This document shows, in pieces, positions 30,927-62,180 of a stretch of 64,000 nt of DNA. The position numbers and the translations under genes are program-made. Position 1 is the stretch's first letter, and every line of letters begins with the position of its first letter. Source of the stretch: Dysgonomonas sp. 25 (GTDB taxonomy: Bacteria > Bacteroidota > Bacteroidia > Bacteroidales > Dysgonomonadaceae); contig NZ_QVMN01000007.1 in the NCBI RefSeq assembly GCF_010501075.1, forward strand, positions 124,001 to 188,000. The letters run 5' to 3'. Below the pieces are notes generated by a model that worked only from the letters and a program-made list of their open reading frames with translations, made no database searches and was not told the DNA's origin.

Positions 30927-31742
30927 ATGAGAAAGACGTGTGTTTTATCGGCTATTCTGCTTTTGCTACTGTTTGTCTCATGTAACGGAAAAAGCAAGAA
31001 TAATATGGAAACAGACAATAAGAATGAAGTACCATACGAGGTGCAGTCGGGGAAAGTGATTCCGGCAGATAAATACCTTGTGGGCGAAGATACATTGTAT
31101 GTTACGCTGGTGGGGCACGGCTCTGTTATGCTCGAGTATAAAGGGCAGATTATCCATATCGATCCTTATTCGGCTGTTGCTGATTATTCGGAGTTGCCCA
31201 AAGCCGATTTGATCCTGTTGACGCATGAGCATCGGGATCATTTGGATATGGAAGCCTTGAAATTGGTGGAGAAAGAGGATGCTTTGACAAGCCTCATGCT
31301 CTCACAGTCGTGTTATGATATACTGAAATATGGCGAAGTGTTGAAGAATGGTGATATTGCTTCGTGGAATGGAATAGGAATCGATGTCGTTCCGGCTTAC
31401 AATATAAAGCATGCGCTCCCTGATGGCAAACCATACCATCCCAAAGGACGTGGAAACGGTTATGTCCTGAAGTTCGGTAAGCCCGGATTTGTCGTGTATA
31501 TAGCCGGTGATACGGAAAATATACCGGAGATGGATGTCTTGAAAGGAAAAGTGGATATTGCATTTCTGCCACAGAATTTACCCTATACGATGGATGCCAA
31601 TATGTTTGTTGATGCGGCATTAAAGGTACAGCCGAAGTATCTGTACACGTACCATGCAAAGGAGGGGGAGATGATCCAATCCAAACGCATCGACAATAAT
31701 GGGATTGAGCACCTTATTCGTCCGATGTCTAATAAGAAATAG
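30927..31742 (+). CDS. MBL-fold metallo-hydrolase lipoprotein (UlaG-like)
   Basis: 271 residues from the ATG at 30927; an in-frame TTG 9 bases upstream overlaps the recJ stop and is less likely. The signal peptide ends in a lipobox (VSCN, Cys about 19), so it should be a membrane-anchored hydrolase facing the periplasm. The metal site is LTHEHRDHLD (HxHxDH, about 96-105), then a YIAGDTENIPEM motif and a final TYHAKEGEM. The body resembles UlaG-like hydrolases. The substrate is unknown. It follows recJ by 5 bases and is probably cotranscribed. Confidence 0.88.
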   Translation: MRKTCVLSAILLLLLFVSCNGKSKNNMETDNKNEVPYEVQSGKVIPADKYLVGEDTLYVTLVGHGSVMLEYKGQIIHIDPYSAVADYSELPKADLILLTHEHRDHLDMEALKLVEKEDALTSLMLSQSCYDILKYGEVLKNGDIASWNGIGIDVVPAYNIKHALPDGKPYHPKGRGNGYVLKFGKPGFVVYIAGDTENIPEMDVLKGKVDIAFLPQNLPYTMDANMFVDAALKVQPKYLYTYHAKEGEMIQSKRIDNNGIEHLIRPMSNKK

Positions 31743-31774
31743 TTACAGGTAGACAAGTTACGAGTTACAAGTTG
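31741..31774 (+). repeat. Heptamer array between lipoprotein gene and recQ
   Basis: AGTTACA ... AGACA, AGTTACG, AGTTACA, AGTT: the same units in the same orientation as the left arm of the unit at 59791, but here with no S23 gene or inverted partner. Confidence 0.6.
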
Positions 31775-52077: not shown

Positions 52078-53379
52078 ATGAAAAGAACTTTGACACAGGC
52101 TATTATGATATTAGCCTTATTCACGACAACCGCCTTGCATGGGCAGGTAACCATCGGCAGTGGCGAGAAACCCAATGTCGGCGCACTGTTAGACCTGAAA
52201 GAACATGCCCCCGATGCCAATAATGCAACGGCAAAGCACGGGCTTGGATTGCCCAAGGTGGAACTTTCGGATTTGAGCAAACTGAAGATAGGAACAGCCC
52301 CCGAAATAACGGGAGCGGACGCTTTGGAGCATACAGGTCTTATTGTTTATAATGCCGTACCTTCGCTATGTATTTCTGCGGGTATTTACATTTGGGATGG
52401 AACCCAATGGGAACAACTAACAAGAAAAGGAGCAGGAATCGGCAGTTATGAAGAAGATGTGCAAGCCCTGAAAGACCTCTACAATGCCAACCCGGGCAAT
52501 ACGCTGGGGTGGAATTTGAGTGGTGACCCCGCAAATTTTGCTGGGGTTACCTGGACGACTATATGTGGCGAAAAAAGAGCTACAGAATTGCGTATTATTA
52601 GTAAAAATCTGACATCTGCTACCGGAATAGATAAACTTTATGCTTTAACGGAGCTGTATTGTGCTGCTAACTCACTAACGAGTCTGGATGTATCGGGCGC
52701 CACGGCGTTAACGGACCTGTGGTGCAATGATAACCAATTGACAAGTCTGAATGTATCGGGAGCCACGGCCTTAGCAACGCTGTATTGCTATTCTAACCAA
52801 CTGACAAGTTTGGATGTTTCGGCAAACACTAATTTAACATCGCTGGAATGCAGTTATAATCAACTGACAAGTTTAAACGTGTCGGCAAACACCGCTTTAA
52901 AGCGCCTCTCTTGCTCTTCTGACCAACTGACGAGTTTGGATGTGTCGACTAACACGGCATTAACGGAGCTGTATTGTGACTATAACCCACTAACGAGCCT
53001 GAATGTATCGGGTGCCACGGCCTTAACATACCTGAGATGCAATAATAACCAACTAACAAGTCTGGACATATCGGCAAACACTAATTTAACAATACTGAGA
53101 TGCTCTTCTAACCAACTGACAAGTTTGGATGTCTCGGCCAACACGGCGTTAACACAGCTGTGGTGCTATACTAACCAACTGACAACTTTGGATGTTTCGG
53201 CAAACACTAATTTAACATCGCTGGAATGCCCTTATAATCAACTGACGCAAACAGAAGTGAATAAGTTTAAGCTTCACCCGAATTATTGCCCCTATATATC
53301 TGGTTGGTCTGTAACTCCCCAGTATTTCCCGGGCACGACGACAATAGATCCTTCTGTAGCCAATCCTACTTGTCCGTAA
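52078..53379 (+). CDS. Secreted leucine-rich-repeat protein
   Basis: 433 residues. The signal peptide ends near TALHGQ. Residues 22-125 are the VTIGSGEKPNVGALLDLK / LIVYN / YIWDGTQWEQL module shared with the FISUMP protein at 14220. After a linker (VQALKDLYNANPGNTLGWN, about 130-155), nine near-identical 21-residue repeats of the form LTSLDVSxNTxLTxLxCxxNQ run from about 205 to 393, giving a curved beta/3-10 solenoid. The tail (PYISGWSVTPQYFPGTT) caps it. The location is surface or periplasm; ligand unknown. No partner gene. It is surrounded on both sides by intergenic repeats, as discussed in the findings. Confidence 0.9.
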   Translation: MKRTLTQAIMILALFTTTALHGQVTIGSGEKPNVGALLDLKEHAPDANNATAKHGLGLPKVELSDLSKLKIGTAPEITGADALEHTGLIVYNAVPSLCISAGIYIWDGTQWEQLTRKGAGIGSYEEDVQALKDLYNANPGNTLGWNLSGDPANFAGVTWTTICGEKRATELRIISKNLTSATGIDKLYALTELYCAANSLTSLDVSGATALTDLWCNDNQLTSLNVSGATALATLYCYSNQLTSLDVSANTNLTSLECSYNQLTSLNVSANTALKRLSCSSDQLTSLDVSTNTALTELYCDYNPLTSLNVSGATALTYLRCNNNQLTSLDISANTNLTILRCSSNQLTSLDVSANTALTQLWCYTNQLTTLDVSANTNLTSLECPYNQLTQTEVNKFKLHPNYCPYISGWSVTPQYFPGTTTIDPSVANPTCP

Positions 53380-57070: not shown

Positions 57071-57769
57071 ATGAGTTGCTTATTTACATCCTCAATTGGG
57101 AAGAAACTGATAATGAGTATATCAGGTGTCGTCCTGGTTTTGTTTTTATTGTTTCACGCAACAATGAACGTGATTGCTATCTTCTCCGAGGAGATGTACA
57201 ATGACATTTGTGCCCTGCTTGGCGCTAACTGGTATGCCGTTTTAGGAACAGCAGCCCTTGGCGCGATAGTGGCTATTCACTTCATCTATGCTTTCGTGCT
57301 GACAATACAAAACCGTAAAGCACGCGGTAAAGACCGTTATGCAGTAACTAAGAAACCAAAACCGGTAGAATGGGCGTCGCAGAACATGCTTGTTTTGGGT
57401 ATTATCGTTATCGGATTTTTAGGCTTGCACTTCAGCCACTTCTGGTACAAAATGATGTTTACCGAATTAATGGGGCATCATACCGTTAATCTGGGAGGCG
57501 AAGTTGTTTCTCCGCAAGACGGGGCAGCCTTTATTAAGTACTACTTCAGCCATCTGTGGATAGTAGTTGCATATCTTGTATGGTATGTGGCATTGTGGTT
57601 CCACCTTTCTCATGGGTTCTGGAGTGCGTTGCAAACAATCGGTTGGAACGGTAAAACATGGTTTAACCGTTGGAAGGTAATCAGCAACATTCTTGCTACT
57701 GCTATCTGCTTAGCCTTTGCTGCCGTGACGATCTTCTTCTATTTGAAATCGATTTACTGCCTCTGCTAA
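57071..57769 (+). CDS. frdC: Fumarate reductase/succinate dehydrogenase cytochrome b subunit
   Basis: 232 residues with five membrane helices (about 15-35, 55-78, 104-125, 160-182, 203-227). It is of the Wolinella-type single-subunit diheme class. Heme-ligand His candidates lie in FHATMNV (helix 1), AIHFIYAF (helix 2), LGLHFSHFWY (helix 3) and WFHLSHGFW (helix 4). It passes electrons between menaquinone and the flavoprotein at the inner membrane. It is first of the operon, with 44 bases before frdA. Fumarate reduction to succinate is the expected direction in an anaerobe. Confidence 0.94.
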   Translation: MSCLFTSSIGKKLIMSISGVVLVLFLLFHATMNVIAIFSEEMYNDICALLGANWYAVLGTAALGAIVAIHFIYAFVLTIQNRKARGKDRYAVTKKPKPVEWASQNMLVLGIIVIGFLGLHFSHFWYKMMFTELMGHHTVNLGGEVVSPQDGAAFIKYYFSHLWIVVAYLVWYVALWFHLSHGFWSALQTIGWNGKTWFNRWKVISNILATAICLAFAAVTIFFYLKSIYCLC

Positions 57770-57813: not shown

Positions 57814-59787
57814 ATGACAACTATATTAGATCCTAAAAAAGATTCTAAAGTTCCTGAGGGGCCACTCGAAAGGAAATGGACAGAATATAAAGATCACCAG
57901 AAATTAGTGAATCCTGCTAACAAGCGCCGCCTCGATATTATTGTGGTAGGTACAGGCTTGGCCGGAGCATCGGCAGCCGCTTCGCTTGGCGAGATGGGAT
58001 TCAACGTATTGAATTTCTGTATTCAGGATTCACCTCGCCGTGCGCACTCTATTGCTGCACAGGGGGGTATCAACGCTGCAAAGAACTATCAAAACGACGG
58101 TGACTCGGTTTACCGTTTGTTCTACGATACAATTAAAGGTGGTGACTACCGTGCACGCGAATCAAACGTATATCGTTTGGCCGAAGTAGCAAATAGCATC
58201 ATCGACCAATGTGTGGCTCAGGGAGTCCCTTTTGCCCGCGAATACGGAGGCCTTTTGGATAACCGTTCGTTCGGTGGTGCGCAGGTTTCGCGTACATTCT
58301 ATGCTAAAGGACAAACCGGACAACAGCTTTTGTTAGGTGCTTATTCAGCCCTTAGCCGTCAGGTGAACAAAGGGACTGTGAAATTATACACCCGTTACGA
58401 GATGGTCGAACTTGTCCTTGTGAAAGATGAGGATGGGGTAGAGCGTGCGCGTGGTATCATTGCCCGCAACCTCGTTACAGGTAAACTGGAGCGTTTTGCT
58501 GCTCATGCCGTAGTAATCGGGACTGGTGGATATGGTAATACATTCTTCCTTTCGACGAATGCAATGGGATCGAACGGTTCTGCCGCTATTCAGGCATATA
58601 AGAAAGGTGCATATTTCGCAAACCCTTGTTTTGCACAGATTCACCCGACTTGTATCCCGGTACACGGCGAGTTCCAGTCTAAATTGACATTGATGTCGGA
58701 ATCGCTTCGTAACGATGGACGCATTTGGGTTCCTAAGAAAAAAGAGGATGCAGAGGCTATTCGTGCAGGCAAGATGAAACCGACCGAAATAAAAGAGGAA
58801 GACCGCGACTACTATTTGGAGCGTCGCTATCCTGCATTTGGTAACCTCGTACCTCGTGACGTGGCTTCGCGTGCAGCGAAAGAGCGTTGCGATGCCGGTT
58901 TCGGTGTGAATAATACCGGCCTGGCTGTATATCTCGACTTCTCGGATGCTATCAACCGTTTAGGTCGTGATGTTGTTGAGGCTAAATATGGTAACCTCTT
59001 CCAGATGTATGAGAAAATCGTTGACGATAATCCGTACGAAACACCAATGATGATTTATCCGGCTATCCACTACACGATGGGTGGTATCTGGGTCGATTAC
59101 GAGTTGATGACTTCTATCAAAGGATTGTTTGCTATTGGCGAGGCCAACTTCTCCGACCACGGTGCAAACCGTTTGGGTGCATCGGCATTGATGCAGGGAT
59201 TGGCTGACGGATATTTCGTATTACCATATACTATCCAGAATTATTTGGCAGACCAGATTACTGTGCCGCGCTTCAGTACAGATTTACCTGAATTCCAGGC
59301 TGCTGAAAACGAGCTGAAAGAGAAAATCGCTAAATTGATGAATATCAAAGGTAAGCGTTCGGTGGATTCTATCCACAAAGAGCTTGGTATCATCATGTGG
59401 GATTTTGTAGGTATGGCGCGTACAAAAGAATCGTTGACAAAAGCTATCGATGATTTGAAGAGAGTGAAAGAGGAGTTCTGGACAAATGTTCGTATTCCGG
59501 GTGAAGCGAATGATTTGAATGTGGAACTTGAGAAAGCACTTCGTGTAGCAGACTTCATCGAGATAGGTTTGTTGATGGCATACGATGGGCTGAACCGTAA
59601 CGAGTCTTGTGGTGGACACTTCCGCGAAGAATACCAAACTCCTGAAGGTGAGGCTATGCGCGATGACCAAAACTATTCGTATGTTGCTTGTTGGAAATAT
59701 ACTGGCGACAATGAAGCTCCTGAATTAATCAAAGAGCCTCTCGATTATGAATTTGTTGTGAGACAACAGCGTAATTATAAATCGTAA
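57814..59787 (+). CDS. frdA: Fumarate reductase/succinate dehydrogenase flavoprotein subunit
   Basis: 657 residues. The FAD-binding Rossmann motif is [16 protein letters not shown] (about 43-58). The covalent FAD His78 is in [16 protein letters not shown]. Substrate-binding motifs are [19 protein letters not shown], a region around [10 protein letters not shown], and [12 protein letters not shown]. The length fits the Bacteroidetes/epsilon class. It interconverts fumarate and succinate on the cytosolic face. The 529-base gap to frdB is abnormal and is filled by the S23 unit. Confidence 0.96.
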
Positions 59788-59790
59788 AAT

Positions 59791-60306
59791 AGTTACGAGT
59801 TACAAGTTACGAGTTACAAGTTATTAGAGAATAATGAAGTAATTGGTAGCTTATAGATAGACTGAAAGTATGAAAACGCATAAAGACCTTATTGTCTGGA
59901 AAAAGGGAATTGATTTAGTGAAGTCAGCTTATGAATGTACAAGTCGCTTCCCTCAATCTGAGCAATTTGGATTAACTTCTCAAATAAGAAGATGTGCGGT
60001 TTCGATACCATCGAATATTGCTGAAGGATGTGGTAGGAACTCGGATAAAGAGCTGATTCATTTCTTGTATATTGCTCTTGGTTCGGCTTCGGAACTCGAA
60101 ACACAGATTATTATATCTGTAGAATTAGGGTTTATGCCACAAGAACAATCGGATAATATTCATCAGCAAGTTAATGAAATGGTAAGAATGATTTCATCCC
60201 TGATAAAGTCTATTAAAACTCGTAACGCTGATTTAATTCATTAAGTTTAAATAAACAAAAGTTATATTGTACAGTTCTTGTAACTCGTAACTCGTAACTT
60301 GTAACT
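59791..60306. mobile_element. S23 gene bracketed by inverted heptamer arrays inside the frd operon
   Basis: The left array is AGTTACG, AGTTACA, AGTTACG, AGTTACA, AGTTATT (59791-59825). The right array, read on the other strand, is AGTTACA, AGTTACG, AGTTACG, AGTTACA, AG (60306 back to 60277). Over 30 bases they pair with two non-Watson-Crick positions (one G-U, one A-C). Removing 59791-60306 leaves a 13-base frdA-frdB spacer, which is normal. The layout (S23 gene in the loop of a long stem) matches 23S rRNA intervening sequences. No target duplication or transposase is seen, so mobility is inferred. Confidence 0.6.
59870..60244 (+). CDS. Four-helix-bundle protein of the S23/IVP family
   Basis: 124 residues. 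The family start is HKDLIVWKKGIDLV, followed by the signature FPQSEQFGLTSQIRRCAVSIPSNIAEG (about 29-55), LIHFLYIALGSASELETQI (about 66-84) and a last helix MVRMISSLIKSIKTR. It probably forms a homopentamer as shown for relatives. The family was found in ORFs inside 23S rRNA intervening sequences and near retroelement or variable regions; its function is unproven. The start is a good ATG with GAAAGT before it. It is transcribed in the same direction as frdA and frdB, in the middle of their operon. Confidence 0.93.
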   Translation: MKTHKDLIVWKKGIDLVKSAYECTSRFPQSEQFGLTSQIRRCAVSIPSNIAEGCGRNSDKELIHFLYIALGSASELETQIIISVELGFMPQEQSDNIHQQVNEMVRMISSLIKSIKTRNADLIH

Positions 60307-60316
60307 GATAAAAACA

Positions 60317-61072
60317 ATGGATAAAACAATAAATATAAAAGTAAAAGTTTGGCGCCAGAGAGGTCCTAAAGTTAAAGGAGCTTTTGAAACATATGCGCTG
60401 GATGGCATTTCGGTTGACAGTTCATTCCTCGAAATGCTCGATATCCTAAACGAACAACTTGTAAACGAAGGTAAAGAGCCTATCGTATTCGACCACGACT
60501 GCCGCGAAGGTATATGCGGTATGTGTAGCCTCTATGTAAACGGAGAGCCGCATGGACCGGACACAAGTGTGACAACTTGCCAGTTGCACATGCGTAAGTT
60601 CAAAGATGGCGAAACTATTACAATCGAACCTTGGCGTTCGGCAGCCTTCCCTATCATCCGCGACTTGATGGTGGATCGTACGGCTTTCGATAAGATTATT
60701 CAGGCCGGAGGTTATACAAGTGTTAATACAGGCGGTGTGCCTGATGCGAATGCTATTCCAATCCCTAAACCGGATGCCGACGAGGCGATGGATGCAGCCT
60801 CTTGTATCGGTTGCGGAGCTTGTGTGGCAACTTGTAAAAATGGTTCGGCTATGCTTTTCGTATCGGCTAAGGTAAGTCAGTTGGCGCTCCTTCCGCAAGG
60901 ACGTGTCGAAGCTGCCCGTCGTGCCAAAGCCATGGTTGCTAAAATGGACGAATTAGGATTCGGTAACTGTACCAATACACAGGCTTGTGAAGCTGAATGT
61001 CCTAAGAATGTTTCTATCAGCAATATTGCCCGTCTGAACCGCGAATTCCTGAAAGCGAAGTTTAAAGACTAA
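60317..61072 (+). CDS. frdB: Fumarate reductase/succinate dehydrogenase iron-sulfur subunit
   Basis: 251 residues. The 2Fe-2S ligands are in [10 protein letters not shown] and a following TTC (about 59-90). The C-terminal ferredoxin part has [11 protein letters not shown] (4Fe-4S) and then [14 protein letters not shown], giving the 4Fe and 3Fe clusters. It links the flavin in FrdA to the hemes in FrdC. It is last of the operon, followed by a strong terminator. Confidence 0.95.
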
Positions 61073-62108: not shown

Positions 62109-62172
62109 AGTTGACGAGTAAACCAGTTGACGAGTAAACCAGTTGACGAGTAAACGAGTATACAAGTATACA
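62109..62172 (+). repeat. Octamer array (eight units)
   Basis: AGTTGACG and AGTAAACC alternate three times (the last as AGTAAACG), then AGTATACA twice. It is the longest and cleanest octamer run in the window. The whole 61999-62469 gap is made of this array, a GC-rich hairpin, the AT-rich element and the ClC promoter. Confidence 0.8.
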
Positions 62173-62180
62173 AGAAGTAG

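Follow-up and report, generated by a model that had tools for sequence, protein, structure and literature searches.

The window considered here, the entire 64,000-nucleotide stretch of Dysgonomonas sp. 25 DNA that was analysed, contains an frd locus whose three genes all lie on the plus strand: frdC/sdhC, for the b558-type cytochrome b subunit (57071..57769; TIGR02046, 191.2 bits against a cut-off of 96), frdA, for the flavoprotein subunit (57814..59787; NF005749, 1159.8 bits against 866) and frdB, for the iron-sulphur subunit (60317..61072; NF005746, 432.2 bits against 243). The gap between frdA and frdB measures 529 bases (59788-60316), and all but its edges is occupied by a unit of 516 bases (59791-60306). 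The unit opens, on the plus strand, with an array of four tandem heptads, AGTTACG or AGTTACA, and a partial unit (59791..59823; heptads proper at 59791-59818). A plus-strand leader (59824..59869) runs from this array to the start of an S23/IVP gene in the same orientation (59870..60244), which encodes a 124-residue member of a four-helix bundle family (PF05635, TIGR02436), and a plus-strand linker (60245..60278) joins the S23 stop codon to a downstream array of four AGTTACR heptads in inverted orientation on the minus strand (60279..60306), recognized by motif and period scans. Comparison with empty junctions marks the 3 nt to the left of the unit (59788..59790) and the A-rich, 10-nt leader of frdB to its right (60307..60316) as remnants of the intergenic spacer; removal of the unit thus leaves 3 + 10 = 13 bases.

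The S23 ORF matches PF05635 at 4.9e-41 (139.7 bits; cut-off 33.8) and TIGR02436 at 138.7 bits (cut-off 24), and is the sole plus-strand ORF of at least 60 aa inside the unit; a minus-strand frame of 71 aa overlaps it. The original prediction had described a 516-base unit with an S23 gene and inverted AGTTACR arrays at the frdA-frdB junction, and the sequence, Pfam and NCBIfam confirm this description. No DNA transposon or MITE transposase was found among the plus-strand ORFs of at least 60 aa inside the unit, nor was a RAYT (HUH) transposase, Pfam giving only PF05635 and a bAvd match below its cut-off. Rfam, applied to window positions 59600-60500, returned no rRNA match and one snoRNA match below the gathering score, and a defence library gave no match. 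The tandem AGTTACRAGTTACR occurs seven times in the window, six of them in the unit and one at 31756 (0 of 100 shuffles), while single heptamers are not clearly enriched there (19 against 12.0 expected, with 5 of 100 shuffles reaching 19). Elsewhere in the window, a second AGTTACR cluster lies at 31741-31769 (31741, 31756, 31763) with no S23 match, tandem repeats of 63, 126 and 189 bp occupy 52667-53246, and positions 62109-62174 hold a period-8/16 array, AGTTGACGAGTAAACC, without S23, whose motif belongs to the family seen, elsewhere in the genus, in frd upstream arms (loci L119, L124 and L133).

A scan of named genomes supplied 80 relatives, the best 80 of 533 that encode one. Together with the window copy, 65 of the 81 loci have the S23 gene in sense between two same-strand genes and four have it antisense to two such genes, the remaining 12 being mixed or at a contig end. 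The arms could be analysed for period and inverted symmetry at 77 loci. Flanks match themselves at lag 7 with values of 0.447 upstream and 0.461 downstream, where most other lags give 0.27-0.31 and lag 14 is raised too (n=77). An upstream arm, when compared with the reverse complement of the downstream arm from the same unit, scores a median of 13.5, against 7.0 with the arms of other loci (n=77) and 7.5 when arms are compared in the same orientation; the own-arm score exceeds the 95th percentile of mismatched pairs at 50 of 77 loci (permutation, 0 of 10000). Arm motifs vary by lineage and include AGTTACR, AGTATCA, AGTGACT, TTGTATA, GTTAGCT and others, and a minority of units, such as L038, L044 and L050, have both arms on the same strand. 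D. alginatilytica, among the named genomes, likewise has an frd unit of this kind (L039).

These comparisons bear on the simplest account of the locus, in which S23 would be an ordinary small operon gene and the heptads neutral spacer repeats that are common in these genomes. Heptamer repeats, TAACTGA and others, were indeed described by MacGregor in Beggiatoaceae, Cyanobacteria and some Bacteroidetes, with 'S23', 'four helix' and 'intervening sequence' giving 0 hits in the available text (PMC4679880), and AGTTACR triples are found at 16 other sites in the Dysgonomonas sp. 25 genome itself. However, the flanks of 62 other genes of the same loci are far less periodic and inverted, with 6 of 62 above the percentile score and a lag-7 value of 0.334; in the 64-kb window no period-7 arrays other than the two S23 arms pass the score (three Markov controls gave 0); and the motif is common to both arms of a unit across very different motifs. 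In contrast to the arms of S23 units, the TAACTGA heptamers are direct repeats with one inverted pair, as far as the available text of PMC4679880 describes them. We consider the neutral account highly improbable.

A larger set drew on the named loci, on the genus, where 18 of 25 genomes have a match, and on eight further genomes. It held 164 distinct S23 genes, of which 160 were kept; three cut or degenerate genes and one of low coverage were left out. The genus and eight-genome inventories exclude some contig-end-cut, weak or stop-bearing matches, and loci L004, L185, L200, L233, L234, L235, L237, L238 and L239 have no entry in the set of 160, owing to a profile miss or low coverage. Co-directional frames lie within 400 nt on both sides of 140 of the 160 genes. 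The arm-periodicity test took the 119 units whose spacers both measure 15 to 150 nt. In 75 of these the two arms are both periodic, where shuffling gave 7 such cases in 2380. Where periodic units have a single period it is 7 in 53, 8 in 19 and 9 in one, and never 5, 6 or 10. Four repeats per array is the mode, with four to five in 47 of 75 upstream and 49 of 75 downstream arms, and the arrays start a median of 4 nt past the upstream stop and end a median of 7 nt before the next start.

A fresh set, 50 additional loci sampled across the phylum, contributed 54 S23 genes, of which 51 were scored, three being without an arm. Sense exceeds antisense by 35 to 1 among the 54, lag-7 values are 0.393 and 0.425, and 30 of the 51 scored genes lie above the 95th percentile in inverted score (permutation, 0 of 10000). 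By the strict score the fresh set is weaker, both arms being periodic in 12 of 51 and at least one arm in 41. Of 296 genomes sampled in the phylum, 235 contain the S23 family, 221 of them over the family cut-off, and Rfam at 12 other S23 loci reported one tmRNA, two tRNAs and no rRNA. Judged from sequence comparison, the anatomy of an S23 gene between heptad arms, and its generality, are well supported. The original prediction had proposed a link between S23 genes and flanking AGTTACR arrays; inverted heptad arrays are general, but the exact AGTTACR is one motif among many, and in a few units the arms share one orientation. Because the link is general, the outcome named beforehand as contrary evidence, S23 genes elsewhere having no connection with arrays, did not occur.

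The frd junction itself was compared across 25 genomes of the genus: 11 hold the unit, one a truncated unit, 11 are empty and two have no FrdB match. Counted among the filled junctions is that of genome G016, whose S23 is without its C-terminal end (95 aa, coverage 0.78). The spacers of the 11 empty junctions measure 6 to 34 nt, and for this reason the 13-base spacer that had been predicted by deleting the unit in silico is realistic. Presence and absence among relatives, likewise anticipated, were borne out on a tree of 28 genomes made from the flanking frdA-frdB DNA, in which the junction underwent at least six changes between filled and empty, five of them forced by well-supported branches. 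Among close relatives, G009 is empty, with a spacer of 6 nt, and G001 has a unit of 475 nt; on sequence, this pair suggests a gain or a transfer of the whole junction by recombination. One scar-like heptad remains in the empty spacers of G010 and G002, the related G005 being filled, which suggests that a unit was probably lost there. Some gains could be allele transfers by recombination at the frd locus, since the AGTGTACT-type units have a right flank common to separated genomes and the tree itself derives from the flanking genes. The truncated S23 unit of G014 (L136), 311 nt in length, is perhaps a decay intermediate.

Several observations concern the movement of units between junctions. The S23 proteins of the frd junction fall on one side of a branch among the grouped rows, with weak support (58) and with the ungrouped L038 inside; L038 belongs to the AGTTACR frd clade, yet is situated at another junction. 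On one contig, the S23 proteins at the marR-fadB and fadB-fadA junctions are 96.6% identical (L063, L179), and the metH-metF and ABC-methyltransferase junctions have a common S23 type together with AGTATCA heptads. Similarity of the arms, also across junctions, is 0.24-0.26 below 60% S23 identity, and 0.42 (n=35) and 0.54 (n=14) above it. The edges of the frd unit leave 2-4 nt on the left and about 10 nt or more on the right, with empty spacers varying among relatives. Neither a transposition event nor an enzyme was found, nor a target duplication, which so short a spacer could not reveal, and a scan of viral contigs with the window S23 alone, which can detect only close relatives, gave no match. 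Taken together, mobility of the S23 units is likely. Reverse transcriptase as a present requirement was rejected, because the array-rich genomes G005 (99% complete, 33 array matches) and G008 (74% complete, 122) have no RVT_1 match.

Folded as RNA, the whole 529-nt gap reaches -150.2 kcal/mol (z -6.7), with a predicted arm-to-arm pairing of about 30 pairs, a long terminal stem whose loop contains the S23 ORF. Such a fold is what would be expected of a true mRNA intervening sequence (IVS), the arms of which would pair in the frdCAB transcript and be cut by RNase III, separating the frdCA and frdB messages and changing subunit ratios. The sense position between co-directional genes points the same way, as does the cutting by RNase III of the heptamer-bearing 23S IVS of Coxiella, with a 5' site at the first repeat according to the available portion of PMC4990558. 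Against this reading, pairing across the arms bears no mark of selection for an RNA stem: sense-strand wobble pairs are no commoner than mirror mismatches (130 GU against 130 AC in 128 units), the two arms of a unit do not match in repeat order (n=56, p 0.53), and their lengths show no correlation (rho 0.10). Same-strand arms in a few units (L038, L044, L050 and others) and the poor inverted repeats of some frd arms (L119, L124 and L133 with a score of 8, L219 with 7) also speak against it. A selected RNA stem was rejected on the negative outcome of all three tests, which left no trace of selection for the RNA-level stem of the original prediction; perfect arm copies were rejected as well. Since these tests are negative, the constraint on the arms seems to be a shared, oriented repeat motif, as for binding sites, and not a particular stem. 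We therefore regard cutting as the purpose of the unit as unlikely; the transcript may still be cut at the stem as a by-product, for which the repeats show no selection.

If the motif is the object of constraint, the S23 protein is a candidate for its reader. Median dN/dS values of 0.05-0.15 in seven groups, obtained from pairs with unsaturated dS only, indicate purifying selection on the protein. The solved relatives 2gsc and 2rld (PDB) have five chains each, and the structure of Xcc0516 is cited as five four-helix bundles in the part of PMC3936711 at hand. By analogy, we infer a ring protein that may read about four or five heptads, and from the sequences it is plausible that S23 acts on the arrays. 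A ring on tandem repeats has a familiar counterpart in TRAP, which binds triplet repeats, and S23 could in principle be a host-tamed regulator of the same sort, whose ring would bind mRNA heptads, hide or expose the next start codon and so tune the second operon gene as well as S23 itself. The placement of the arrays, close behind one stop codon and before the next start, agrees with this proposal, as do the purifying selection and the match between five chains and the four to five units that are commonest per arm. In contrast, the presence of units at a junction is patchy even in close relatives, where a needed regulator should be steadier, and the named junctions are alike in little but being mostly metabolic operons. 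An S23 gene with one in-frame TAG and CAGTCAACAGTCAACA-type arms, elsewhere in the Dysgonomonas sp. 25 genome (L002, C54), is probably decaying.

Arrays that stand apart from any S23 gene would, on the regulatory proposal, be targets in trans. Only three of the 16 other AGTTACR sites of the Dysgonomonas sp. 25 genome have arrays of both orientations (L007, L019, L024), and its groES-groEL spacer contains a heptad hairpin without S23 (L007 1492-1620, C3:49222-49350). Of 24 groES-groEL spacers across the genus, 7 have such an S23-less hairpin and 16 are empty, with lengths of 27-46 nt; one is unclear. When the hairpin motif was compared with S23 arms, those of its own genome ranked 1-2 of 18 genomes in four of the six tested and 10 and 5 in G020 and G024; G022 has the hairpin and no S23 match. 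Dispersed AGTTACR arrays outside the frd unit occur in 9 of 11 frd-S23 genomes against 0 of 11 frd-empty ones (Fisher p 2.2e-4). Reduced to independent contrasts, of which there are five, an average of 3.8 point the same way, 0 the opposite way and 1.2 are undecided (sign p 0.125); action of S23 in trans is thus a lead, not a result, because only five pairs are phylogenetically independent. Dispersed arrays, as the original prediction had supposed, nonetheless look like part of the system, given this association and the motif matches of the groES-groEL hairpins. The two frd-S23 genomes G021 and G001 (51% complete) have no dispersed AGTTACR arrays, the seven genomes of the genus without an S23 match have none of the three array motifs searched, and neither do G009, G014, G015, G017 and G023, whose S23 genes have other motifs.

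Most S23-less arrays, 30 of the 40 examined, lie between co-directional genes, as regulatory targets would; the survey took 24 array loci from other genomes, frd units excluded. Against the regulator stands the absence of any S23 match from those 7 of 25 genomes, and on balance we find it quite unlikely. A dispersed repeat in the Dysgonomonas sp. 25 genome, with about a dozen copies (L005, L006, L009-L016, L031), combines AGTTACR heptads, a hairpin of GC type (GCCCTTCGGGC) and an end resembling TTGCAGCGGACGG.

Intervening sequences of 23S rRNA have been described since 1990. In that of Coxiella burnetii, two to three tandem GACAGAT heptamers adjoin the S23 ORF, and the first of them is where the 5' RNase III site lies, as stated in the accessible sections of PMC4990558. 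The frd unit resembles it in having an S23-family ORF between terminal inverted arms with a stem of about 28-30 bp, predicted in the case of frd, and in its tandem heptamers within an arm, its sense orientation to the host transcript and its patchy presence (PMC4990558, same sections). These heptamers are, at the level of sequence, the strongest tie between the present unit and the rRNA IVSs, and together with the sense position between co-directional genes they uphold the kinship in anatomy that had been predicted. There are differences. Unlike an rRNA IVS, the frd unit sits between frdA and frdB in a metabolic mRNA and not in a 16S or 23S rRNA gene; units of the frd type have heptads in both arms, which vary by lineage; RNase III excision, known for Coxiella, is conjectural for the frd unit; and S23 is under purifying selection here, whereas the Coxiella S23 is reported in those sections to be decaying and probably not made (PMC4990558).

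A second parallel is provided by the REPIN/RAYT systems, in which, from the portion of PMC3116915 available, a gene is likewise linked to inverted short repeats, and dispersed, gene-less repeats of the same motif seem to accompany it. S23 differs in being of a four-helix bundle family with no transposase match, and the arms differ from REPINs in being tandem heptad arrays, not single palindromes, and in their position between operon genes (PMC3116915). The unit carries an S23/IVP gene and would operate much as an IVS or a REPIN does, yet its position is not that of an rRNA IVS and its protein is not that of a REPIN. S23 and Avd (PF22296, NF033474) are of the same fold family by sequence, at matches below curated cut-offs (for NF033474 on the window S23, 33.5 bits against 80), but, unlike diversity-generating retroelements, the frd unit has no reverse transcriptase beside it, its neighbours being frdA and frdB. 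A weak fourth S23 match in the Dysgonomonas sp. 25 genome (L004, C5:5515-7477), with a reverse transcriptase frame about 1 kb on, is probably the Avd and reverse transcriptase of such a retroelement, to judge from an inferred Avd label. Other members of the protein family, 23S_rRNA_IVP ORFs, occur in rRNA insertions of CPR bacteria, where the family is called functionally uncharacterised (PMC11270868), and beside cas genes (PMC3936711). They share the protein family and differ in lying inside rRNA genes or cas loci; heptad arrays go unmentioned in the available text of both papers, that of PMC11270868 having 0 hits for 'repeat'. Among the matches listed in a search of titles and abstract openings of the open literature, a scope beyond which most subscription papers fall, none linked S23 to heptad arrays in operons.

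We propose, with roughly even odds (about 0.5), that the S23 unit is a transposase-free, REPIN-like mobile unit in which S23 acts on the heptads and to which the 23S rRNA IVSs are related. The frd unit would be a single instance of an element that occurs widely, in which inverted arrays of about four 7-8-nt repeats each enclose an S23/IVP gene, and which has become lodged in the short spacer of two co-directional operon genes and is presumably read along with both. It may be a selfish or mildly useful mobile unit that lacks a transposase of its own, with S23 binding the heptad arrays and assisting in their copying, upkeep or homogenisation, in trans as well, a role that we liken to that of RAYT for REPINs. 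The sense position between genes might then be what remains after selection, because a unit situated there gets transcribed without disrupting any gene. Those 23S rRNA IVSs that contain an S23 gene would be units of the same kind sitting in rRNA. A broader version would make S23/IVP genes with heptad arms a phylum-wide class of transposase-free mobile elements: the ring would read the heptads and drive both the copying and the homogenisation of arrays, whether in cis or in trans, and the IVSs of 23S rRNA would be members that landed there. It is more tentative, and we would put its chances somewhat below even. The observation with which the original prediction began is thus confirmed and its interpretation partly supported. 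The association gives the common S23/IVP proteins a cis partner in the heptad arrays, connects the long-puzzling 23S rRNA IVSs with units of mRNA operons and suggests a system that spreads repeats without a transposase.

The host operons of these units are diverse. When junctions were grouped by similarity of the flanking proteins and named from one representative per group, frdA-frdB accounted for 15, fadB-fadA for 11, leuC-leuD for 9 and metH-metF and hemCD-hemE for 7 each, followed by fadA-fadE (7), groES-groEL (6), hutI-fchA (4), serC-serA (4) and trpB-trpE (2), with other groups unnamed. Some of these names, serA, metF, fadB, fadA and fchA among them, fall below the curated cut-off of the best model, and the hemCD label was given on a hemC match plus length. 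A tie of S23 to one biochemical pathway was rejected, the named junctions being diverse. Gastranaerophilales have S23 units at the groES-groEL junction, the one whose spacer in Dysgonomonas sp. 25 holds an S23-less hairpin. Should units alter the ratio of paired proteins such as FrdA/FrdB or GroES/GroEL, operon output would vary between neighbouring species according to which of them has the unit. S23 genes are also found in the same fad operon at two successive junctions, fadB-fadA and fadA-fadE (L062, L068, L094, L107, L108).
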